In this document: positions 4,587 through 58,992 of the stretch, piece by piece
Layout: every line of letters starts with the position of its first letter
How positions within the stretch are numbered: position 1 is the first letter of the stretch
Origin: Pseudomonadota bacterium
GTDB lineage: Bacteria > Pseudomonadota > Alphaproteobacteria > GCA-2731375
Length of the DNA: 58,992 bases
NCBI GenBank assembly: GCA_027623205.1
Contig: JAQBYC010000012.1
Span: 1-58,992, forward strand
Direction: 5' to 3'
Notes under the pieces: generated by a model
Told to the model about the DNA's origin: nothing
The model's database searches: none
The model's input: only the letters and a program-made list of their open reading frames with translations
Made by a program: the position numbers and the translations under genes

Positions 4587-5882
4587 ATGAGCGAGGCCAG
4601 ACCTTTCGACGGCATTCGGGTGGCCGAGTTCGGGCAGTTCATTGCCGTGCCTTTTTGCGGACAGATGCTGGCCGATGGCGGGGCTGAGGTGCTCAAGATC
4701 GAAGCACCGGGCGGCGACCCAACGCGCCGGTTCAATCCCCTCGCGCCGGGAGAATCCCGCATCTTCCTCTCTCGCAACCGCGGCAAGCACTCGCTTCCAC
4801 TGCACCTTAGCAAGCCGGCCGCGCGGCCGGTCATCGAGCGCATCCTCGCCTGGGCGGACGTTGTGTTGATCAACTTCCGCCCTGGTCTCGATACGCAGCT
4901 TGGTCTGAAACCGGAAGACCTGCTGGCCGCCCATCCTCGGCTGGTGATCGCGTCGGTGACCGCCTTCGGCAAGCGCGGCCCGGACGCCGGCCTGGCGGGA
5001 ATGGACATCGTCCTGCAGGCGCGCAGCGGATTGATGGCCGCCAACGGGCGGATGATCGATGGCCGTCCGGCGTCGGGCGATCCGGTCAGTGCCGACTATA
5101 TGTGTGCGATGTGCCTGTCGTTCGGCGTCGCCTCGGCGCTATTGCGCCGGGAACGTACCGGCAATGGCGGCATCGTGGATGTTTCGCTCATGCAGGCCGC
5201 AATGACCCTGGCCAACAATCAGCTCATTCGGTCCGAGGACAAAGACGGCCCGGCGCATGACGCTGCCCTGAAGCGGCTGGCCGAACAGCGGGCCGCGAAG
5301 GCACCCTACGAAGAGCAGGCCGCGGCCATGCCGAATGCACGGTTTCCGTCCATGAGTGCGGTGTATTTCCGCACTTTCGAGACCGCCGACCGCGCCATTG
5401 CCGTCGCCTGTGGCAGTCATTCCCTGCGCGTCAAGTTTGCCGGCGTACTGGGCATCGAGGATTTGGGTCTGCTGGAGACGTCGCTTGAGAGCCCACGCTG
5501 GGAGGACTACTACGCCGCACTCAAGGGGGAGGTCGAAAGCATCCTGCGCCAAGCCTCGGCGGAGACCTGGATCGCACGTCTGAACGAGGCCGGCATTCCG
5601 GTTGCCGCGGTGCGCTTCCCGATCGAACTGTTCGACGATCCGCATGCCCATGCCAACCATATGTTTCACGACATGGATCACCCCGCCGCCGGAACAGTGC
5701 GCATGCTTGGGCCGCCGATAGAGCTCGACGGCGACGGCTTTACACCGAGCGTGCCAACGCCGCCCTTCGGGAGCGAGACCGACCGCATACTTCGCGAACT
5801 GGGTTTTGACGCGCCGGCGATCGAGGCGCTCGTAGCGGAGGGTATCGTGCGCCGGGGTCTGTTCGCACCCGACGACGGTTGA
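4587..5882 (+). CDS. Class III CoA-transferase (CaiB/BaiF family)
   Basis: 431 residues, the usual length for family III CoA-transferases, which move CoA between carboxylic acids through an aspartyl-CoA thioester. The N-terminal block GIRVAEFGQFIAVPFCGQML and the segment DVVLINFRPG are diagnostic. The likely catalytic Asp is Asp140 in GMDIVLQARSG. GAGGAG precedes ATG 4587. It lies 83 bases after the GTPase gene on the same strand and could share its message or have its own promoter. The acid substrate cannot be read from sequence. Confidence 0.9.
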   Translation: MSEARPFDGIRVAEFGQFIAVPFCGQMLADGGAEVLKIEAPGGDPTRRFNPLAPGESRIFLSRNRGKHSLPLHLSKPAARPVIERILAWADVVLINFRPGLDTQLGLKPEDLLAAHPRLVIASVTAFGKRGPDAGLAGMDIVLQARSGLMAANGRMIDGRPASGDPVSADYMCAMCLSFGVASALLRRERTGNGGIVDVSLMQAAMTLANNQLIRSEDKDGPAHDAALKRLAEQRAAKAPYEEQAAAMPNARFPSMSAVYFRTFETADRAIAVACGSHSLRVKFAGVLGIEDLGLLETSLESPRWEDYYAALKGEVESILRQASAETWIARLNEAGIPVAAVRFPIELFDDPHAHANHMFHDMDHPAAGTVRMLGPPIELDGDGFTPSVPTPPFGSETDRILRELGFDAPAIEALVAEGIVRRGLFAPDDG

Positions 5883-5914
5883 AGAAACGCGTTCCAGCGG
5901 CGGTGTGATATTGT

Positions 5915-6013
5915 TAGAGCAATTTTCAATTAATCGGAGTCGCTATCGCGACCTAGGTATTTGGTACAATTGCTCTATTCTTAAGAGTCCGGGCATGTTT
6001 CGAAGAAACATGC
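5915..6013 (+). repeat. Dispersed palindromic repeat, copy 2 (most complete, two hairpins)
   Basis: Arm TAGAGCAATT at 5915 pairs with AATTGCTCTA ending at 5977. A second perfect hairpin follows, GCATGTTTC (5993-6001), loop GAA, GAAACATGC (6005-6013). The whole unit recurs inverted at 26753-26851, including the linker around TTAAGAGTCC. It lies between the CoA-transferase and sulfatase genes, where it could also stop transcription. Confidence 0.85.
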
Positions 6014-7503: not shown

Positions 7504-8352
7504 ATGGCCTATGAATTCAATCATCTTAAAGTCGATCAACGGGGTCGCGTGGCTACCGTCATCATCGACAACCCGCCGGTGAACGTCATCACCCTGGCGC
7601 TGCTTGCGGAGCTCGATGCGCTTTCCGTCGCACTGAAGGCGGATCGGGATCTCACCGTTGTCGTGATGCGAAGCGCCGATCCGGATTTCTTTCTGGCGCA
7701 TTTCGATGTGGCCGCCATACTTGAGCGCCCCATCGATTCCGAGCCCCGGCGCGAAGTGCAGCTGAAGCCTTTTCATGCCATGTGCGAGCGGTTTCGCACA
7801 ATGGACAAGGTGATTATCGCCCAGATCGAGGGACGCGTTGGCGGCGGCGGCAGTGAGTTATCGACCGCGTTTGACATGCGGTTCGGCGTTCGGGGCAAGA
7901 CCCGTATCAATCAGATGGAAGTGCCGCTCGGCATTCTGCCCGGCGGTACCGGCACGCAGCGGCTGCCGCGCCTGATCGGCCGCGGCCGCGCGATGGAGCT
8001 GATCTTGAGCGGCGATGACATGGATGCCGAGACAGCGGAGCGCTGGGGTTATCTCAATCGAATTTTCGAGCCGGACGAGATTGGCCCGTACGTCGAGCGA
8101 TTGGCGCAGCGTATTGCGTCCTTCCCGCCCACCGCAGTGCGTCTTGCGAAAGAAAGCGTCAATCAATCGGACAGGCCGTTGCTTGAGGGGCTATTCGAGG
8201 AAGCCTTTCTGTTCGAACAATTGCTGCGGACCGATACCGCGCGCACGAACATGCAACGCTTCCTGGAAATCGGCGGCCAGACCCGTGAGGGCGAGTTGCG
8301 GATGAACGAGCTGTGTGCCGAGCTTGGCGAGACCCCCCAAGACGACGGGTAA
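7504..8352 (+). CDS. Enoyl-CoA hydratase/isomerase (crotonase) family protein
   Basis: 282 residues, typical of crotonases. The oxyanion-hole glycines are in RVGGGGSELS. Both glutamates used by hydratases are retained: Glu139 in QMEVPLGILPGG and Glu165 in GRAMELILSG, so hydratase chemistry is plausible. The first residues (VATVIIDNPPVNVIT) match the family start. A purine-rich stretch (GTAGGAG) precedes ATG 7504. It stands alone between the sulfatase and a convergent enolase-superfamily gene, so the pathway is unclear; it is not BoxC, which lies at 11096. Confidence 0.85.
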   Translation: MAYEFNHLKVDQRGRVATVIIDNPPVNVITLALLAELDALSVALKADRDLTVVVMRSADPDFFLAHFDVAAILERPIDSEPRREVQLKPFHAMCERFRTMDKVIIAQIEGRVGGGGSELSTAFDMRFGVRGKTRINQMEVPLGILPGGTGTQRLPRLIGRGRAMELILSGDDMDAETAERWGYLNRIFEPDEIGPYVERLAQRIASFPPTAVRLAKESVNQSDRPLLEGLFEEAFLFEQLLRTDTARTNMQRFLEIGGQTREGELRMNELCAELGETPQDDG

Positions 8353-8393
8353 TATCGAGGACCATTGGCATAACGGCCAGATCGCATTTCAAT

Positions 8394-9503
8394 TCAAAGA
8401 TCGATACGTCGTTTCTGCAATTCACTTTCAACAAAATCGATGCCCAGACCCGGCGCTTCGGATAAATTGAACAAGCCATCGACAGGGAAGGGCGGCCGGT
8501 CAAACACCGCGTGCATCCGTGTGCTGGGGTCATTCCATTCACAGGGTTTGGTGGCATGCAGTTGGGCGGCACACACATGCAAATTCGCCACATGCCCAAT
8601 CATCGGCTGCGTTTGATGCGAGACCAGTTCGACGCCATGCGCCTGCGCCAGCGCCGCGCACCGCAGCAACCCGGTAATGCCGCCCATCTTGACAATGTCG
8701 GGCTGGATCATACGGACACCGGCTTCGATCAGTTCAACCAGGCCGCCTGTGGTATATGTCTGTTCACCCGCTGACACGGTTATGGACAGCTTACTGGCAA
8801 CTTCCCCCATCGCCTTGATATGGTAATGCTGAACCGGTTCCTCGAACCACCAGTAACCGAGATCCTCCAGTACCCGGCCAACCCGGATGGCGCCGCCTGT
8901 CGAATAGCCATTGTTGGCGTCGAAGGCGAGTGGAAAGTTGTCGCCGACAAGCCGGCGCACGGCGCGCGCTTTTTCAAGGTGGTCGGGAATATCGGCATCC
9001 AGATTGACCCGTCCGTTATCGAACCGAATTTTTATGGCGGCGGGTTTGTCCTGCATGCGTTGTTCAATGATGCGCAAAACATCGTCCAACGTACGTTCCA
9101 CGCCGTTGCCGCCGATGGAGGCGTAAAACGGCAGCGCGGTTCGCCAGGCGCCGCCCAACAACTTGTAGATCGGTTGGTCGAAAAGCTTGCCCTTTAAATC
9201 CCAAAGCGCGATATCGATTGCCGCCAAGGCGCCCGTCAAGGCGCCTTCCGGACCAAGTTTGGCCAGACGATGGCTCAAGCGGTCCTGCAGCACGGCATGA
9301 TCCAACGGGTCGGCGCCGATCAGACCTGGCGCAATATCGTGGACGATCATGCCGAGCGAGGCGAGACCCCCTTGCATCGGCGAGGCTTCGCCCACGCCAT
9401 GTTGCCCGTCGTCGGTCCAAACCCGCACGAAGGCGCTGCGTTGCGCGGCCGTGTCGTCAGGCGACCACTGAACCTGAAACGCTTCGATACGTTCAATTGC
9501 CAT
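8394..9503 (-). CDS. Mandelate racemase/muconate lactonizing enzyme family (enolase superfamily)
   Basis: 369 residues with the complete enolase-superfamily layout: capping domain 1-120, then a barrel with KIR (Lys158, Arg160), Asp195 in FDANNGY, Glu221/222 in WFEEP, Glu247 in SAGEQ and His296 in SHQTQP. The three acidic residues bind Mg2+. The Lys-x-Arg and His positions resemble the mandelate-racemase subgroup of acid-sugar dehydratases and racemases more than the cycloisomerases. ATG 9503. It converges with the enoyl-CoA hydratase gene and lies downstream of boxB on the same strand, 157 bases away. The exact acid substrate is not predictable. Confidence 0.85.
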   Translation of the reverse strand: MAIERIEAFQVQWSPDDTAAQRSAFVRVWTDDGQHGVGEASPMQGGLASLGMIVHDIAPGLIGADPLDHAVLQDRLSHRLAKLGPEGALTGALAAIDIALWDLKGKLFDQPIYKLLGGAWRTALPFYASIGGNGVERTLDDVLRIIEQRMQDKPAAIKIRFDNGRVNLDADIPDHLEKARAVRRLVGDNFPLAFDANNGYSTGGAIRVGRVLEDLGYWWFEEPVQHYHIKAMGEVASKLSITVSAGEQTYTTGGLVELIEAGVRMIQPDIVKMGGITGLLRCAALAQAHGVELVSHQTQPMIGHVANLHVCAAQLHATKPCEWNDPSTRMHAVFDRPPFPVDGLFNLSEAPGLGIDFVESELQKRRIDL

Positions 9504-9660
9504 CGTTTCCCCCTGTATACGGACGTTTGCGCGCTCAAGACTCTAGGCAAAATCAACAAAATCGGCACGAAGCGGTAGCCGGCGCCTATCCGTCTGACCA
9601 CCGCGCCGGATCGAAATGCCGACAATGCGGGTAAAGTAGCTTGCCGCGCCGCACCAAGAC

Positions 9661-11091
9661 CTAATTCAGCCGTACATACTCGAAATCCACCGGCTGGTTG
9701 TTGATGCCGCGGGCGGGCGGGGCGATCCAGCCGGCGTATTTGCCCGGCTCGGTGACCGGTTGCATCAGGCCGATCACATAGGCGCGGTCGGCCTCCGTGG
9801 GCAGCCAGCCGCCATGTTTCTGGGTCCATTCCGCCTCGGTAATGACCTCGCCCTCGGGGCTGACCCGCACGCCCGAGGTATTCGCGAGATTGAAGCTGCC
9901 GATCTGGCGATTGAAGGCGCGATGGGGCAGTTTCAATTCGAAATTGATGCCCTGACGCTTGATGATCTGGTTCCACCGCCGTACGCCACGGTCACAATCG
10001 GTGACATAGTCATCGCGCAGGCGCTCGTTGATGACCGTCAGGGCGTTATCCTGGTTGGTGACGAATTTTTCGCCCTCCAGTTCCAGGATGGGGTACAGCG
10101 CATCACCCAGGGTGTGATCGTCGTCGATCTTGGTTTCCTCGAAACGCCCTTTCAGCCCCATGGAATAGAAATTCGCCGCGTTGGTTGATCGTTCCGAACC
10201 GAACAGGTCAAGGGAAACAGAGAAATGGAAGTTCAGATATTTCTGCAGCGTGGGCAGATCAATGCCGCCCATTTTGCGGACGTTGTCTTCGCCATGTTCC
10301 TTCATCAACTCGCAGGCCCGCTGGATGACCCGGCCCACGCCGGTCTCGCCCACGAACATATGATGGGCTTCCTCGGTCAACATGAAGCGGCAGGTGCGCG
10401 ATAGCGGGTCAAAGCCGCTTTCCGCCAGGGATGCCAACTGGTACTTGCCATCCCGGTCGGTGAAGTAGGTGAACATGTAAAAAGACAGCCAGTCGGGCGT
10501 CTTCTCGTTGAAGGCCCCGAGGATGCGCGGCTTGTCCGGATCACCCGAATGCCGTTGCAGCATCTCGTCGGCCTCCTCCCGGCCATCGCGGCCGAAATAG
10601 CCGTGCAGCAGGTAGACCATGGCCCACAAATGCCGGCCTTCCTCGACGTTGACCTGAAACAGATTGCGCAGGTCATAGAGGGACGGGGCGGTAAAGCCCA
10701 GTTGCCGCTGCTGTTCCACCGACGCCGGCTCGGTATCACCCTGGGTGACGATCAGGCGGCGCAGCATGCCGCGGTATTCGCCGGGTACTTCCTGCCAGGC
10801 GGCCTCGCCCTTGTGTTCGCCGAAATTGACTTTGCGCTCCGCTTCCGGTTCCGCAAGAAAGATGCCCCAGCGGTATTCCGGCATTTTCACATAGCCGAAA
10901 TTTGCCCAGCCCTTGGCATCGACGCTGACCGCGGTGCGTAAATAGACCTCATGGGTCTGAAACTCTGTCGGCCCCATTTCCTGCCACCATTTTTGATAGT
11001 TCGGCTGCCACGCTTCCAAGGCCCGTTGCAGGCGGCGGTCTTCCGACAGGTCGACGTTGTTGGGGATGCGTTCCTGATAATCAATCGCCAT
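9661..11091 (-). CDS. boxB: Benzoyl-CoA 2,3-epoxidase, oxygenase component BoxB
   Basis: 476 residues, the usual BoxB length. BoxB is a class I di-iron oxygenase that epoxidises benzoyl-CoA to 2,3-epoxybenzoyl-CoA. The di-iron ligand pattern is visible: Glu121, ExxH at Glu151-His154 in VEEGRHLW, and ExxH at Glu241-His244 in EEAHHMF. I start at ATG 11091 (MAIDYQERIPNNV), which follows AAGGAGGG. The open frame extends 25 residues further, but only into the end of boxC. Only 4 bases separate it from the boxC stop, so the two are co-translated. The reductase partner BoxA is not in the window. Confidence 0.95.
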   Translation of the reverse strand: MAIDYQERIPNNVDLSEDRRLQRALEAWQPNYQKWWQEMGPTEFQTHEVYLRTAVSVDAKGWANFGYVKMPEYRWGIFLAEPEAERKVNFGEHKGEAAWQEVPGEYRGMLRRLIVTQGDTEPASVEQQRQLGFTAPSLYDLRNLFQVNVEEGRHLWAMVYLLHGYFGRDGREEADEMLQRHSGDPDKPRILGAFNEKTPDWLSFYMFTYFTDRDGKYQLASLAESGFDPLSRTCRFMLTEEAHHMFVGETGVGRVIQRACELMKEHGEDNVRKMGGIDLPTLQKYLNFHFSVSLDLFGSERSTNAANFYSMGLKGRFEETKIDDDHTLGDALYPILELEGEKFVTNQDNALTVINERLRDDYVTDCDRGVRRWNQIIKRQGINFELKLPHRAFNRQIGSFNLANTSGVRVSPEGEVITEAEWTQKHGGWLPTEADRAYVIGLMQPVTEPGKYAGWIAPPARGINNQPVDFEYVRLN

Positions 11092-11095
11092 GGGG

Positions 11096-12745
11096 TCAGA
11101 CCCTCCTTTTATCGAATTCACTGCGCTGGCCGCTGCCGTACAACGGCAGCGCGCCGGTTTCGCCAACCGCGTTGGGGCGCTGGAATATCCAGTTCTGCCA
11201 GGCGGAGAGGCGCGAGAAGATTTTGCTTTCCAGGGTTTCCGGTCCGCCGAAGCGGAGGTTGGCTTCCATGCCGGTCAAGGCGTCCGGAGAGAAGGCGGCG
11301 CGCTCTTCAATGGCGATGCGTATCTCGTCCTCCCAGTCAATGTCGTCGGGGGCAAAAGTGACCAGACCGGCCGCTTCCGCCGCAAGGGCGTCCATGGCCT
11401 CGCCCTGCCGTTGTTCCAGGGCCGCGATGGTATCCGCATCGTCCAGGAAACGGGATTGCAGGCGGGTCAGGCCATTGACCATCTCGTAGGCGCCAAAGTT
11501 CATGGTTGTCAGGGACACCGTGGCCGGCGGCCGGTTGTCGCCTTCGAACTGACCATCGAGCATGTAACTGCGGTCAGCGGCCAGGGCCAGTTCCAGCAAG
11601 GTGCCGGTGAAGCAGGATGCCGGTTCGATAACGGCGAAGATGCTGCGGGATGTGACATCGATCCGCTTGAAGGTGCGTTTGAGATACAGGATCACCTCGC
11701 GCACCAGCCAATGATCCTGGTTCGCAGCCAGGGTGGCATCGTGCGCGGCCACCAGATTGCCGTCGCCGCTGGTATGGAACAGCCAGGTGCCGATTTCATT
11801 CTCGTTGGTGCGCAGGTGCAGAATAGCGTCGTCCAATTCGCGGGCCAGGCGAAGCGGCCAGTAGTCGGCGCCCAGCGCTTCGATGGCGTCCGTATCGGGC
11901 GGTGGCGCTTCGGTCGGCGCCAGCACGGTTAGGCTGGCGGTGCGGGCATCCCGGTCAATCTCCACCCGCAATGCGGAATAGCTGATGCTATCGCCGTCGA
12001 TGGTGCGTTGCAGCGGTGTCAGGGCGATACCCTGGCCGTCGGCGGGCCGGTCCGATTGGGCAACGGCCCGGGCCGCGCGGGCGGCCACGGCGTCATGGTA
12101 TTTGGAACGCGGTGCGATCTCGTCTATCAGACGCCAGTCCACGGCGCGCTGGCCGCGGATACCTTCCTCCAGGGTACAGAAGAAATCGGCCCGGTCGCGC
12201 CGCACCTTGCGTTTGTCCGACAGGCGGGTCAGGCCGCCGGTGCCGGGCAGCACGGCCAGCAGGGGGACTTCCGGTAAGGATACGGTGGTGGCGCCATCGT
12301 CGATCATGACAATCTGGTCGCAGGCCAGGGCCAGCTCATAGCCTCCCCCCGCGCAGGGGCCGTTGACGGCGGCGATATAGATCTGCCCCGAATGGGCCGA
12401 GGCGTCTTCGATGCTGTTGCGGGTCTCGTTGGTGAATTTGCAAAAATTCACTTTGTGGTCATGGGACGAGGTTGCCAGCATGCGAATATTGGCGCCGGCG
12501 CAAAAGATTCTGTCCTTGGCCGAGGTCATGACAACGGCGGCCACTTCCGGATGCTCAAAGCGCAAGCGCTGTACCGCATCGTAAAGTTCGATATCGACGC
12601 CCAGGTCGTAGGAATTCAGCTTCAACTCGTAGCCGTCCCGCAGACCGCCGCCTTCGTCCACGGCCATGGCCAAGGTCGCGACGCGGCCGTCCATGGACAA
12701 TTGCCAATGCCGGTAAGATCCAGGCTCCGTGCGGAATTCAATCAT
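11096..12745 (-). CDS. boxC: 2,3-epoxybenzoyl-CoA dihydrolase BoxC
   Basis: 549 residues, full length for BoxC, the large crotonase-fold enzyme that opens the ring of 2,3-epoxybenzoyl-CoA to 3,4-dehydroadipyl-CoA semialdehyde and formate. The crotonase core is visible as FCAGANIRML, NGPCAGGGYELALACD and SLPEVPLLAVLPGTGGLTRL. The long C-terminal region is characteristic of BoxC. First gene of the boxC-boxB pair. A sigma-70-like promoter and TGCA-type palindrome lie 55-85 bases upstream (12801-12830), pointing to BoxR control. It supplies the semialdehyde that a BoxD dehydrogenase, not seen here, would oxidise. Confidence 0.95.
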   Translation of the reverse strand: MIEFRTEPGSYRHWQLSMDGRVATLAMAVDEGGGLRDGYELKLNSYDLGVDIELYDAVQRLRFEHPEVAAVVMTSAKDRIFCAGANIRMLATSSHDHKVNFCKFTNETRNSIEDASAHSGQIYIAAVNGPCAGGGYELALACDQIVMIDDGATTVSLPEVPLLAVLPGTGGLTRLSDKRKVRRDRADFFCTLEEGIRGQRAVDWRLIDEIAPRSKYHDAVAARAARAVAQSDRPADGQGIALTPLQRTIDGDSISYSALRVEIDRDARTASLTVLAPTEAPPPDTDAIEALGADYWPLRLARELDDAILHLRTNENEIGTWLFHTSGDGNLVAAHDATLAANQDHWLVREVILYLKRTFKRIDVTSRSIFAVIEPASCFTGTLLELALAADRSYMLDGQFEGDNRPPATVSLTTMNFGAYEMVNGLTRLQSRFLDDADTIAALEQRQGEAMDALAAEAAGLVTFAPDDIDWEDEIRIAIEERAAFSPDALTGMEANLRFGGPETLESKIFSRLSAWQNWIFQRPNAVGETGALPLYGSGQRSEFDKRRV

Positions 12746-26752: not shown

Positions 26753-26851
26753 GCATGTTTCTTCGAAACATGTTCGGACTCTTAAGAAAAGAGCAATTGA
26801 ACCAATCACTTGGGTCGCTAAAGCGAATCCAATTGACTGAAAATTGCTCTA
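26753..26851 (-). repeat. Dispersed palindromic repeat, copy 4 (inverted full copy)
   Basis: Reverse-complement counterpart of 5915-6013. The GCATGTTTC/GAAACATGT hairpin comes first, then the AGGACTCTTAAGAA-type linker, then the 63-base palindrome ending AAAATTGCTCTA. It lies between the convergent alpha/beta hydrolase and GcrA-like genes and may serve as a terminator. Confidence 0.85.
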
Positions 26852-55144: not shown

Positions 55145-55618
55145 TTACTCGGCCTTGGCCGCCGTCATGATCGCCGCCGCGCCTTCGGCCCGGCCGAAGC
55201 GGGGATCGTTCGCGCTGGGCAGCTTGGCCAGGCCGTTGCAGCGCAGCACTGGGCCATCGGGTCCGATCATCAGGCCCGATGCGAAACCCAGACGCCGTGT
55301 GGTGTGGCGGAAATCGATTTCGCTGACCAGCCATTGACCCTTCAACGCCGGTTTCAGGAAATCATAACTCATTTGGATGGTGGGCGAGAAGGCCTCGGTT
55401 TTTGCCGCCAACTGCACATTGAAGCCGACCGCCATGTCCATCACGGTCATCATCATGCCGCCATGGCAAATGCCGACCGGGTTCAGGTGGTGGTCCTGGA
55501 CGACAAAGCCCATGACGCCACGGTCGCCGTCGAGCCGCCAATACAACGGCCCCACATGTTTGACGAAGCCATCGTCGAGGGTAAAAGGTTGAAAGCCTTC
55601 CGGTACGCCTGCCTGCAT
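55145..55618 (-). CDS. PaaI-type hotdog-fold thioesterase
   Basis: 157 residues of the acyl-CoA thioesterase 4HBT/PaaI group. The signature HLNPVGICHGGMMMTVMD contains the conserved Asn, the HGG turn and the active-site Asp; VSEIDFRHTTRRLGFASG forms the later strands. It hydrolyses aromatic or medium acyl-CoA, often to relieve CoA trapping. I start at ATG 55618 (MQAGVPEGF); the frame is open to 55657 without family similarity. It is the last gene of host-like composition: the foreign-looking recombinase frame overlaps it in another frame from 55362 on. Confidence 0.87.
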   Translation of the reverse strand: MQAGVPEGFQPFTLDDGFVKHVGPLYWRLDGDRGVMGFVVQDHHLNPVGICHGGMMMTVMDMAVGFNVQLAAKTEAFSPTIQMSYDFLKPALKGQWLVSEIDFRHTTRRLGFASGLMIGPDGPVLRCNGLAKLPSANDPRFGRAEGAAAIMTAAKAE

Positions 55619-57470
55619 GATGTTGGACCTGACCTCTGTTTGCCATGACGCACGCAACCGTGGGCGCGCCCGCCCACATACGGCGTTTCCGCGCCGTCGG
55701 GCAAGCCGGCGTTGGGATGCTGTGGCGAAAGGCGGCTACTCCACCGTCACCGATTAATTCAGAACGGTGATTATATTTGGACAGGTCACTCAGGTCTTTT
55801 TTTTTACCCCTCGACCTCGACAGATTCACCACCTTGGATGAACTCTTGGACCTACCTTCTCTGACTCCATAACCCAAACCCTTGTTGTCTGGATCGAGGT
55901 ACGCAAGTTTGTCCCTGACGACCTTCATCTTAAAGTACACATCGAACTTGTGTCCGACCTGTTTTCTGTTTCTGTCTCTGTCTTCTCCCATCGCAGTCTT
56001 AACCACGATCTTGTCAATCAGTCCCTTGACCCAAGATGCATGATTTTCTGGATCACTCATCTTGTGCTGAAGGTCTTCCCCGAATTTTTGAACCCAGTCC
56101 AACCAGACTCGTTCCTCTGAAAGACCCTCGATCTCCAACTCCGTCTTGGTAACCTCTTCCTTCAAGTTGTCCAGTTCATCCCTCAGTCTATTGAGAATTC
56201 CCTGTGCGATTTTCTTCTCAGTCCGTTCCTGCAACAGATCAGTTTCCAACACGATGATGTTTTCGTAGGTCTGTTCCTGTCTCCTGACCAATTTTTTGCA
56301 CTTGTCACTCAGACGTTTTTCCTGACTTTCAAGGTCTTTGTCCCTTGAAAATTTGGTTGTGAGGACATCAGTCTTGAACCGTTCTTTGAGTAGGTGCGAA
56401 TTGGAAACGACCGTTTGGATGTGGTCGAGAAGATACTGGTCGGTGAGTGGGATGTTCATAGAACGGGCATTCAAACAACTACTCTTCGTTCCGTTTTTCC
56501 AACTGCGATTCCTACTGAGACAATAGTAGACCTGCGTGTTGTATTCCTGACCGTTTCTACGAGTCCCCTTTTTGATTTCGGACCCATATTTTTGACCGCA
56601 CTCACACTCCAAATAGTCCCCGAAAAGGGTGACATGTTTCTTGTTATTGTCCTGCATTTTCTGTCTTCGTTCGACTTCCTTTCTCACTCTAAGGAAGGTC
56701 GGACGCGATATGATCGGATCAATCGAGTAGGTAAAGGTTTTATCGAGTTCTTTATCGTAGAAACTCCTCTCACCGATGTAAGACCGATTTGCTAGAATTT
56801 TGTTGATCGAACCAAGGTTCCATAATCCAGACTTTGTGCGCGGGGGAACGACACCCTTGCGATCCAACTCGTTCTTGATGTCCATTGTGGTTAGTCCATC
56901 AAGGACCGCGTTGAACATCCAGACTGTCCACTGACTCTCTTCCTCATCTATCGACAGGACACCGTTTTCCGATTTGTATCCAAACAGAACCGTTCCACCG
57001 TACCAACGGTTATCCAAACCTTGTCTGAGAAGGTGACGTTTTCCCTGTTTACTTTTGTGACTACGTTTCTCGTTCTCGTACTGTTGGAGTTTTGAAATGA
57101 TGTCGTAGGACAACTTCTCTTCAAGACTGTCAAAGTTGACGAGGTTCCCCAGTTCACCCTCGTAGAACTGGATACCGAACTTATCGAGGTAATCTTTTCT
57201 GAAGAGAGAACTGTCGGTTTCATCTCTAAAAAGTCTACTTCTGTCGTACACCCAGAGATGTTTCACCAGACCTTTTTCGATATCGTCTTTGAGGTCTTCA
57301 AGGACAGGACGAAATCGGATTGAACTGCGTCCACCCTCGTCACGCAGTCTGAATTTCAGACCTTTATCATGCGCGATCTTCTCACCAATCTTACTCTGGG
57401 TATCGAGAGAAAACCCTTTAGTTTGTTCGGTTGTCGAAACCCGTGTGTAACAGTCGAGATAATCAGTCAT
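55362..57470 (-). CDS. Large serine recombinase, C-terminus running across the boundary
   Basis: The open frame has 702 codons from ATG 57470, of which the first 573 or so are true recombinase. In order: resolvase domain with catalytic Ser12 in YTRVSTTEQ and DRSRLFRDE (about 1-140), recombinase domain (150-280), zinc ribbon with CECGQKY and paired Cys at 317 and 332, a coiled coil (375-460), and a basic Ser/Arg/Lys-rich tail (540-565). Such enzymes integrate and excise phages and mobile islands at att sites. After ELI (573) the frame enters host-like DNA and overlaps the thioesterase gene in another frame, so the last ~129 residues are accidental. Codon use differs strongly from the rest of the window. 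Confidence 0.85.
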   Translation of the reverse strand: MTDYLDCYTRVSTTEQTKGFSLDTQSKIGEKIAHDKGLKFRLRDEGGRSSIRFRPVLEDLKDDIEKGLVKHLWVYDRSRLFRDETDSSLFRKDYLDKFGIQFYEGELGNLVNFDSLEEKLSYDIISKLQQYENEKRSHKSKQGKRHLLRQGLDNRWYGGTVLFGYKSENGVLSIDEEESQWTVWMFNAVLDGLTTMDIKNELDRKGVVPPRTKSGLWNLGSINKILANRSYIGERSFYDKELDKTFTYSIDPIISRPTFLRVRKEVERRQKMQDNNKKHVTLFGDYLECECGQKYGSEIKKGTRRNGQEYNTQVYYCLSRNRSWKNGTKSSCLNARSMNIPLTDQYLLDHIQTVVSNSHLLKERFKTDVLTTKFSRDKDLESQEKRLSDKCKKLVRRQEQTYENIIVLETDLLQERTEKKIAQGILNRLRDELDNLKEEVTKTELEIEGLSEERVWLDWVQKFGEDLQHKMSDPENHASWVKGLIDKIVVKTAMGEDRDRNRKQVGHKFDVYFKMKVVRDKLAYLDPDNKGLGYGVREGRSKSSSKVVNLSRSRGKKKDLSDLSKYNHRSELIGDGGVAAFRHSIPTPACPTARKRRMWAGAPTVACVMANRGQVQHHAGRRTGRLSTFYPRRWLRQTCGAVVLAARRRPWRHGLCRPGPPPEPGRHLPWRHDDDRDGHGGRLQCAVGGKNRGLLAHHPNEL
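55740..55765. other. Composition boundary between host-like and foreign DNA
   Basis: Left of about 55,750 the DNA is GC-rich and host-like; right of it, beginning around ATTAATTCAGAACGGTGATT, it is AT-richer with different codon use. CACCG and CGGTG occur as short inverted repeats around the point. This may be an attachment-site junction (attL or attR) or an artificial join. Confidence 0.6.
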
Positions 57471-57667
57471 ACTTTTTCAATCAATCTAATCACCGTTCAT
57501 ACTACTCTATCAGGTACTCCAATCAGAGTAAAGTGAACAGCGATTAAATCGACACAGAGAGGTTCTGCGGTCTTTCTGGAGGGTTGATACCTAAATGCCA
57601 GGGGATGCGTCTGTGCGACCCTCTGTGGTCGTTTAGCAGGGTATTCAGCGGTGGAATCAGGGAGAGG

Positions 57668-57694
57668 GAACCTCACCGGATTAGGGTGAGGTTC
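57668..57694. terminator. Perfect 10-bp hairpin in the foreign segment
   Basis: GAACCTCACC (57668-57677), loop GGATTAG, GGTGAGGTTC (57685-57694). It lies 28 bases beyond the stop of the 124-residue minus-strand gene and 198 bases upstream of the recombinase start. No T-run follows, so termination by hairpin alone, or a protein-binding site, is possible. Confidence 0.45.
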
Positions 57695-57721
57695 TATTCG
57701 GGTCAGGTTGAGGTCTATGGG

Positions 57722-58096
57722 TTATGCGACCTCGCACTTGTCTTCGTAGGTTGCGTCCTCCAGATATTTTTTTGGGAGGAGTTCTTTTCTACGAACTTTC
57801 CAATCCTCAACATGTCGTTTCGCAATTGCGAGACGCTCCGTCCAATCATAACAGACGTTGTGTGCGATGCGGTCAAAATGTTCTTTTCTGTGTGATCGGT
57901 GAAGACGAAAATACGCAACACATATGTGTCTTTCGTAGGGGAAGGACCACTGTTCTCCCCAGATGGATGCGTGTTCGTCAGTGAAAAAAATAATATACCC
58001 TCCGTTTGGTGATTTTCGTAACCAATACACCTCACCATTCACCGAAATCGGTTTGTTGTGTTTCTTATTTTTCCATCCCGAGAGGTATTGGAACAT
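57722..58096 (-). CDS. Protein of unknown function in the foreign segment
   Basis: 124 residues, rich in Trp, Tyr, His and Lys (SVNGEVYWLRKSPNGGYIIFF, EHASIWGEQWSFPYERHICVAY, WTERLAIAKRHVEDW). It reads like a small phage or plasmid protein, with a beta-rich first half and helical second half, but I recognise no domain. An overlapping plus-strand frame (57584-57895) is less protein-like. No good ribosome site is seen before ATG 58096. It shares the low-GC composition and strand of its neighbours. Confidence 0.55.
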   Translation of the reverse strand: MFQYLSGWKNKKHNKPISVNGEVYWLRKSPNGGYIIFFTDEHASIWGEQWSFPYERHICVAYFRLHRSHRKEHFDRIAHNVCYDWTERLAIAKRHVEDWKVRRKELLPKKYLEDATYEDKCEVA

Positions 58097-58120
58097 CTCA
58101 TTTGAGATTAGTTCCTTTGC

Positions 58121-58975
58121 TCATTTCATAAACTTCCTAAAAAATGTAAATGTCTCTTCTTGGCTTTGACTAGTAACGTCTTTATCATAAGTGTATGTTT
58201 GAGTTCCATAATAAGTACTCTTAGTAAATCCGTCCAGTTGTTTGCAATCCCAGCAATGAGTTGCACCTTTGTATGTAACAAAGACACTGTCTGGTTGTGC
58301 TTTCTTGACGCTATTATATAACCATGAGCTACAGCCAGTACCCATTTCTACATCATTAGTACCAACCATCCAAAGTACTGGGCGAGCAACACTACTAGTC
58401 AAGTAAGTAGCGGATGGGTATGAGCAGCCACCATATAATGCTACGTGAGCTCTTGGAGTTACCCAACCAATCTTTTCGGCACTCTTAATTGAATGATTGC
58501 TAATTGCAGTAGCACCAACCATAGCACCAAGACTAGTACCCATCGTAAAGATCTTATTTTTATCTACACCAGTTACATTAGCTAGAGCTTGTACGCCATT
58601 GAACACATCACGTAACAAACGACTTTGTGACAGGTGCTTGTCCTTTCCGCAGTTCCAAGGCTTGCTTGCATTTCGACCTTCATTGTAGTCAGTAATAGCA
58701 ACAACGTAGCCTTGCTCAAGAAGTGGATTTACCCAATTATTTTTAATATCGTTTTCGTTAAAACGTTGAACACTAGCACAACTTGGAAGGAATAGTACTG
58801 CTCCTCCGTTAGCTACCTTAGGCATATAGATACTATTTTTAACAGTGTACTTCTTTTCGGAGTAAGTAAGGTCCTTATGGCGACCATCATACTTTTCACC
58901 AAACGTAGCGGCGCAAGCGGTTGTTGATGCCAGCAAAGACGAAAGTGCAACAATTTTAAATAGTGTTTTATACAT
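58121..58975 (-). CDS. Secreted dienelactone-hydrolase-like alpha/beta hydrolase
   Basis: 284 residues with a signal peptide (FKIVALSSLLASTTACA, cleavage probably after ACA). The alpha/beta hydrolase fold shows nucleophile Ser in TMGTSLGAMV, acid Asp in GTNDVEMG, and His in GATHCWDCKQ. Cys residues in SCASVQ, WNCGKD, GGCSYP, GCSSW and CWDC could form disulphides, fitting an exported enzyme. The plan is that of dienelactone hydrolases and related periplasmic esterases. AGGAG precedes ATG 58975, near the window end. Composition matches the recombinase side, not the host, so it is cargo of the element or belongs to another genome. Confidence 0.78.
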   Translation of the reverse strand: MYKTLFKIVALSSLLASTTACAATFGEKYDGRHKDLTYSEKKYTVKNSIYMPKVANGGAVLFLPSCASVQRFNENDIKNNWVNPLLEQGYVVAITDYNEGRNASKPWNCGKDKHLSQSRLLRDVFNGVQALANVTGVDKNKIFTMGTSLGAMVGATAISNHSIKSAEKIGWVTPRAHVALYGGCSYPSATYLTSSVARPVLWMVGTNDVEMGTGCSSWLYNSVKKAQPDSVFVTYKGATHCWDCKQLDGFTKSTYYGTQTYTYDKDVTSQSQEETFTFFRKFMK

Positions 58976-58992
58976 TCTAAGTTCTCCTACTT

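Follow-up and report, generated by a model that had tools for sequence, protein, structure and literature searches.

What joined a segment of low GC content (guanine plus cytosine) carrying a serine recombinase gene to host DNA at the end of a bacterial contig, and where in the host genome did the join occur? The stretch analyzed, hereafter the window, is 58,992 nt long and represents the whole of contig C20 of genome G000 (5.02 Mb, 228 contigs, 96.9% complete, 0.5% contamination). Very probably, positions 55748-58992 are one end (attR, an attachment or att site) of a genomic island that was put into the 3' end of glmS by its own large serine integrase. A preliminary description of the window had recognized the edge of an integrated element but had missed the target, which is here assigned to the 3' end of glmS.

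The boundary coincides with the tail of glmS

The features at the boundary are as follows.

55145..55657, minus strand: host thioesterase gene (Pfam 4HBT, 5.9e-8), a neighbor of glmS in the genus
55736..55745, minus strand: V-E-stop remnant of glmS (GGTGGAGTAG), the host half of the junction, which together with the core gives T-V-E-stop
55746..55747, minus strand: putative crossover core AC in the Thr codon of glmS, placed by comparison of the G297 junctions and by half-site spacing
55748..55771, minus strand: element half-site (half of attP), with AACGGTGAT (read outward from the core, plus strand) at 55763-55771
55362-57470, minus strand: full frame of the recombinase, 702 amino acids (aa)
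55748..57470, minus strand: element-encoded part of the large serine integrase (Pfam, PHROG; 34% to the integrase of contig L185 and 34% to that of genome G297)
55362..55745, minus strand: host DNA into which the integrase frame extends for 127 codons plus a stop, shifted relative to the frame of the thioesterase gene

An abrupt change in composition had been described at approximately 55,750, and this was borne out. In 1-kb windows, the GC content was 0.53-0.68 before the boundary and 0.44 in the foreign part, and the first trinucleotide change point was located at 55,735, with positions 55,735-55,793 within 3 log units. Long nucleotide similarity of the window to genomes G010 and G002, in which the thioesterase is 91% and 90% identical, respectively, stopped at 55,711-55,716. 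The low-GC segment contains three open reading frames (ORFs), all on the minus strand, encoding the integrase, a 124-aa product and an alpha/beta hydrolase; the foreign DNA is cut off by the contig end, since the window is the entire contig. No tRNA gene was found in the window, and thus there is no tRNA att site; Rfam gave no match.

In the genus (a set of 10 genomes), the thioesterase gene and glmS were located on one contig in 8 of the 9 genomes compared and on separate contigs in G008, and the gap between them ranged from approximately 90 bp (G004) to 8.1 kb (G001). All nine glmS ends examined from the genus encoded K-S-V-T-V-E-stop. The minus strand of the window at 55747-55736 reads ACG GTG GAG TAG, which is the T-V-E-stop of glmS, and the remaining part of glmS is absent from the contig.

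The integrase frame runs through the boundary

The recombinase was found to have the N-terminal resolvase domain (Pfam Resolvase PF00239, 5.4e-14, residues 7-151) and the Recombinase domain (PF07508, 1.6e-11, residues 176-269), and it matched the PHROG 95 integrase (1.6e-59). The sequence Y-R-V-S-T was invariant between this protein and three large serine integrases, and its serine is presumably the catalytic one. The zinc ribbon PF13408 was not reported in the window protein at a cut-off of 0.01 and was present in the G297 and L185 relatives. Matches to proteins of known structure were weak (TP901-1, 2.8e-6; A118, 0.0027). No close relatives of the integrase were found in the viral or genome contigs searched, and only distant matches were obtained in phages and plasmids.

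The 3' end of the integrase gene points at the junction. It had been stated in the preliminary description that the frame crosses the boundary into host DNA and lies over the thioesterase gene, and counting gave the same result: 575 codons extend through the putative core at 55746-55747, and the host DNA contributes another 127 codons and the stop. When the same shifted frame was followed over the thioesterase gene, one stop was found in the window, none in G002 and 4-10 in four other relatives tested; the long open frame on the host side is probably an accident of the host sequence. Closed frames were present in 77 of 83 related integrases (two of the 77 without an aligned tail). Because the tail past the last conserved motif has a median length of 16 aa in the related integrases, compared with 78 aa to residue 568 of the window protein, the conserved parts of the integrase appear to be complete, and the exchanged end is probably dispensable.

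Related integrases are located at glmS

Relatives of the integrase were sought in 398 genomes of the host phylum (E <= 1e-14, with at most three candidates scored per genome), of which 7, including G000 itself, gave a match. In the two best other genomes, G297 (34%, 6e-53) and G400 (29%, 1.7e-23), the integrase lies at glmS.

In G297, the integrase gene (L179 6486-8150, minus strand) encodes a protein that ends in GTHSATVE-stop, and the corresponding DNA reads CATTCCGCT-AC-GGTGGAATAA. A K-S-A-T-V-E-like match near L179 4257 was in another reading frame and was dropped as a chance match. The second G297 contig carries a complete glmS, with the stop followed by TTTCCAACGGGGGT. Both contigs had a GC content of 0.55 in the island part and 0.68 in the host part. 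Because the facing ends of the two contigs share a 44-nt tandem-repeat stretch, they may be assigned to one island of approximately 11 kb plus any collapsed repeats. Thus both ends of this island are visible: the integrase enters a leftover glmS tail, and the opposite end abuts the complete glmS. The island (L179 6486-11344 and L183 1-6430) also encodes a second serine recombinase, an AAA_13 ATPase (PADLOC candidate defence system PDC-S06, 9.9e-225), a type I methylase (1.2e-134) and a specificity subunit (2.5e-21); among the island ORFs scanned, none was recognized as a separate HsdR gene.

In G400, a truncated integrase gene ends 17 nt from the stop of glmS with its 3' end toward glmS, and its frame stops before the site. 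A contig from a viral collection, L185, has the same layout on the integrase side as G297 and the window. It was the only match when the viral contigs were searched with a narrower profile; the viral-contig profile scan covered the best 80 of 188 relatives. In G008, a glmS-side end without an integrase was found. This is the weakest case, as the contig stops approximately 120 bp past glmS, where the GC content is 0.41, compared with 0.62 in glmS.

A phage-type integrase (PHROG 95) and the presence of the L185 relative in a viral-contig collection would also be expected if the element were a temperate phage integrated as a prophage. However, no phage structural gene was recognized among the three foreign ORFs of the window, in which most of the element is unseen; the scanned proteins of the G297 island were the defence-type ATPase, the methylase and the specificity subunit; and the L185 integrase matched no phage or plasmid record at 1e-25. 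A prophage is therefore considered unlikely, and a genomic island is preferred.

The att sites and the putative crossover

The two G297 junctions were compared with each other. Their outer arms are inverted copies (13 of 13 bases), and when the half-sites are read outward from AC, 19 of 24 positions match (p 4e-8, assuming equal base frequencies and with the core chosen afterwards). The attP implied by these junctions, as read from the sequence, is a 50-bp dyad centered on AC. This AC is part of the Thr codon in K-S-V-T-V-E-stop. The sequence GGTGGAATAG in the right half of attP provides glmS with a new V-E-stop. The A118 attP is described as 50 bp with a 2-bp crossover (PMC3556126), and another serine integrase attP as an inverted repeat beside int, the spacer of which measures at least 20 bp (PMC4068962). 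The G297 dyad has the size and form reported for such sites (PMC3556126, PMC4068962).

The motif GG[GT]G was present at offset +19 in all six half-sites, namely the integrase sides of the window, G297 and L185 and the glmS sides of G297, G400 and G008. It fits 263 of 54,900 host positions (0.48%) and was absent from the 8 other glmS ends of the genus and from all 7 viral glmS ends. In the window, AACGGTGAT was the best of 60 offsets when compared with AACGGGGGT (7 of 9 bases), and it lies at the same offset as in the relatives. An initial placement of the junction at codon -6 of glmS was revised in favor of the AC in the Thr codon once G297 had been compared. An inverted repeat spanning the junction played no part in this placement. 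The AATCGGTG bases before AC may be element DNA mimicking glmS.

One att half, that of attR, is visible in the window. At all three integrase-side junctions, the frame of the integrase extends through the core and ends at different distances past it: 10 nt in G297 (on the glmS stop), 23 nt in L185, and 127 codons and a stop in the window. Two further statements of the preliminary description, namely that a large serine recombinase lies next to one att site and that its 3' end was exchanged on integration, are supported.

Probable integration into glmS and the possibility of a false join

The following course of integration is proposed. The end of glmS (K-S-V-T-V-E-stop) would serve as attB, and the crossover would fall on the AC in the Thr codon. 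The island would keep the old host V-E-stop at its far end, with the integrase gene reading into it, and at attL, attP would supply a new V-E-stop, so that the essential glmS would stay whole. As the integrase frame crosses the crossover, the 3' end of the integrase gene would be exchanged on integration. In terms of what can be read from the contigs, both island ends are seen in G297, glmS-side ends in G400 and G008 (the latter without an integrase), and integrase-side ends in the window, G297 and L185. From these we infer the recombination itself, the exact core, and the completion of glmS in the host of the window, whose attL is not in the assembly.

A further idea, which we put forward tentatively and regard as rather doubtful, is that the islands share the last codons of glmS as an ending. 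The V-E-stop of attP would then complete glmS in the integrated state and the integrase in the free circle, and the integrated integrase would borrow the old glmS end of the host, which is in frame in G297. In the window and L185 the frames differ; there, integration would give the integrase an altered C-terminus and may act as a switch between the free and the integrated state. Hypothetically, integration may alter integrase activity.

Several observations weigh against integration at glmS. Searches with glmS, glmU and gph, which are neighbors in G010, gave only distant matches (28-36%) in the genome of the window itself; glmU and gph were searched as proteins. The far att site of the window is missing from the assembly, with the segment at the contig end, and a second composition break lies inside the foreign segment. 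The motif, the offset and the core were all picked after the sequences had been seen, and the 13/13 arm match in G297 has an E value of 1.7 in its own list and is telling by place only. When all 24 nt are compared, the half-site of the window agrees with the other half-sites at no more than 9-13 positions; for this reason, the core in the window is based on the motif and the glmS tail. Among the relatives, G400 has the opposite orientation, with the integrase adjoining glmS, and its integrase is only a truncated one. The weaker matches G156, G097, G200 and G260 showed neither a glmS match nor a glmS tail inside their short flanks, and searches of G008 and of the nine remaining genomes of the genus gave no integrase of the window type.

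Some of these points would also be explained by an assembly chimera at 55,747, in which a low-GC piece from a different organism was attached to host DNA in error, an alternative that had already been raised in the preliminary description. The position of the segment at the contig end, the absence of glmS, glmU and gph from the genome and the second break all fit a false join, as does the fact that several genus genomes (G001, G002, G003 and G006) have a glmS that is split or else truncated at the end of a contig. However, such a join would have to strike the tail of glmS and also the 3' terminus of this particular integrase, the two best relatives of which, independent of each other, are located at the same gene, and the half-site motif would have to fall at the shared offset. 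This chimera is therefore considered very unlikely. The earlier reading as the edge of an integrated element is supported. Under integration at glmS, the adjoining host stretch with glmS, glmU and gph would have been lost from the bin, probably as a lost contig.

The hydrolase and the second composition break

Beyond the integrase gene, the segment contains the following features.

57722..58096, minus strand: 124-aa ORF, with its frame open up to 58117
58,062-58,162, no strand: second composition break, best at 58,085 (difference in log-likelihood, delta-logL, 101.5-101.9), between the 124-aa ORF and the hydrolase gene
58121..58975, minus strand: alpha/beta hydrolase gene, dienelactone hydrolase-like (Pfam DLH, 2.6e-9; Peptidase_S9, 1.9e-9)

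The 124-aa ORF gave no match in Pfam, NCBIfam, PHROG or PADLOC and one weak match in the 398 genomes (E 4.1e-4), which is interrupted by internal stop codons; its predicted structure had a mean pLDDT (predicted local distance difference test) score of 41 and was not used. The N-terminus of the hydrolase contains a signal-like stretch (judged by eye only), and the contig ends 17 nt past its start codon. The closest relative of the hydrolase (60%) comes from a record titled Chloroflexi bacterium SP319, and the two proteins end at the same C-terminal position. Neither protein had close relatives in the viral contigs or a match in phages and plasmids.

The second break may mean that the island is a mosaic or that the contig contains a second join, and the hydrolase may lie inside or outside the island. 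A second join, in which integration did take place at 55,747 but an assembly chimera near 58,085 added a hydrolase from outside the island, is a serious possibility, to which we give somewhat less than an even chance. The value of 101.5 exceeded those of all 132 host windows (maximum 84.1), all 74 windows of viral integrase loci (maximum 95.8; 80 loci, six of them too short) and all 20 windows of the G297 island (maximum 87.9). Codon use differs as well (GC content at third codon positions 0.31 vs 0.54), and the frame of the 124-aa ORF is open to the stop of the hydrolase gene, as if it had been cut. However, 7 of 42 overlapping L185 windows also reached 101.5, partly over repeat-rich MORN genes, mosaics are frequent among islands, and the hydrolase and its 60% relative share the same end. 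The claim that the secreted hydrolase is cargo of the element was not established, given the second break, the contig end close to the start codon and the missing far att site.

Additional observations at the loci compared

In G001 (L074 2342-10434), the 8.1-kb stretch between the thioesterase gene and glmS contains a small resolvase-like fragment (7995-8396) and a low-GC part at approximately 8,500-10,400. When 14 loci, mostly glmS loci, were scanned for the integrase type of the window, the resolvase fragment in L074 was the sole match, and the 7 viral glmS loci gave none. An intergenic repeat of approximately 80 bp is present in the window at 5914-5994 and 26774-26851 and in L038 at 5441-5521; at least 40 copies with 80-90% identity were counted in the genome among the best 40 of 455 candidates, and one copy lies between the thioesterase gene and glmS in G010. 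L185 contains two similar tyrosine-recombinase-like ORFs (3-365 and 12036-12647) and several MORN-repeat ORFs, all named by eye.

Comparison with known systems

The end of glmS is known as the target of Tn7, for which it is a safe and conserved site (PMC4046053, PMC7830746), and in this respect the island resembles Tn7. However, Tn7 uses the TnsABC transposase with targeting by TnsD and inserts downstream of the coding region (PMC4046053, PMC7830746), whereas here a serine integrase would act with a crossover within the last glmS codons. No TnsABCD protein was found among the three foreign ORFs scanned, and an insertion of the Tn7 type downstream of the glmS stop was not encountered: glmS is cut in its coding end, with T-V-E-stop at the junction. 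No report of glmS as the target of a serine integrase or recombinase, or of an integrative element of this kind, was found in the open-access full texts searched; in their available parts, PMC4046053 and PMC7830746 name glmS only as the Tn7 target, and PMC8409611 does not name it.

The large serine integrases of A118, TP901-1 and SV1 share the Resolvase and Recombinase domains with the window protein. A118 resembles the present case in its attP of approximately 50 bp with a 2-bp core, but it integrates within comK (PMC3556126). In SV1, attP lies beside int and contains an inverted repeat; the differences are that this attP is located downstream of int and that no compensating fragment of a gene was found (PMC4068962). 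In contrast to these phage integrases, the attP proposed here contributes the target gene's missing end and sits inside the int frame.

The nearest described logic is that of SCCmec and ECC, which are genomic islands that large serine recombinases insert into the conserved housekeeping gene rlmH at its 3' end, with the att sites inside or at the end of the gene (PMC6222049, PMC4693430). They differ in having the CcrAB pair and rlmH as the target, whereas here there is one integrase with glmS as its target, and the att site falls inside the integrase gene itself. Such a gene, extending across its own att site, would offer a clean test case for control by integration. The glmS islands may carry defence genes, as seen in G297, and their integrase is a possible integration tool. 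The locus also illustrates that a suspected chimeric contig can be judged through the relatives of the enzyme at the join. Taken together, these findings point to a family of serine integrases that target the end of an essential and broadly conserved gene and whose att sites are recognizable in the sequence, and thus to a serine-integrase counterpart to the use of glmS by Tn7 and of rlmH by SCCmec.

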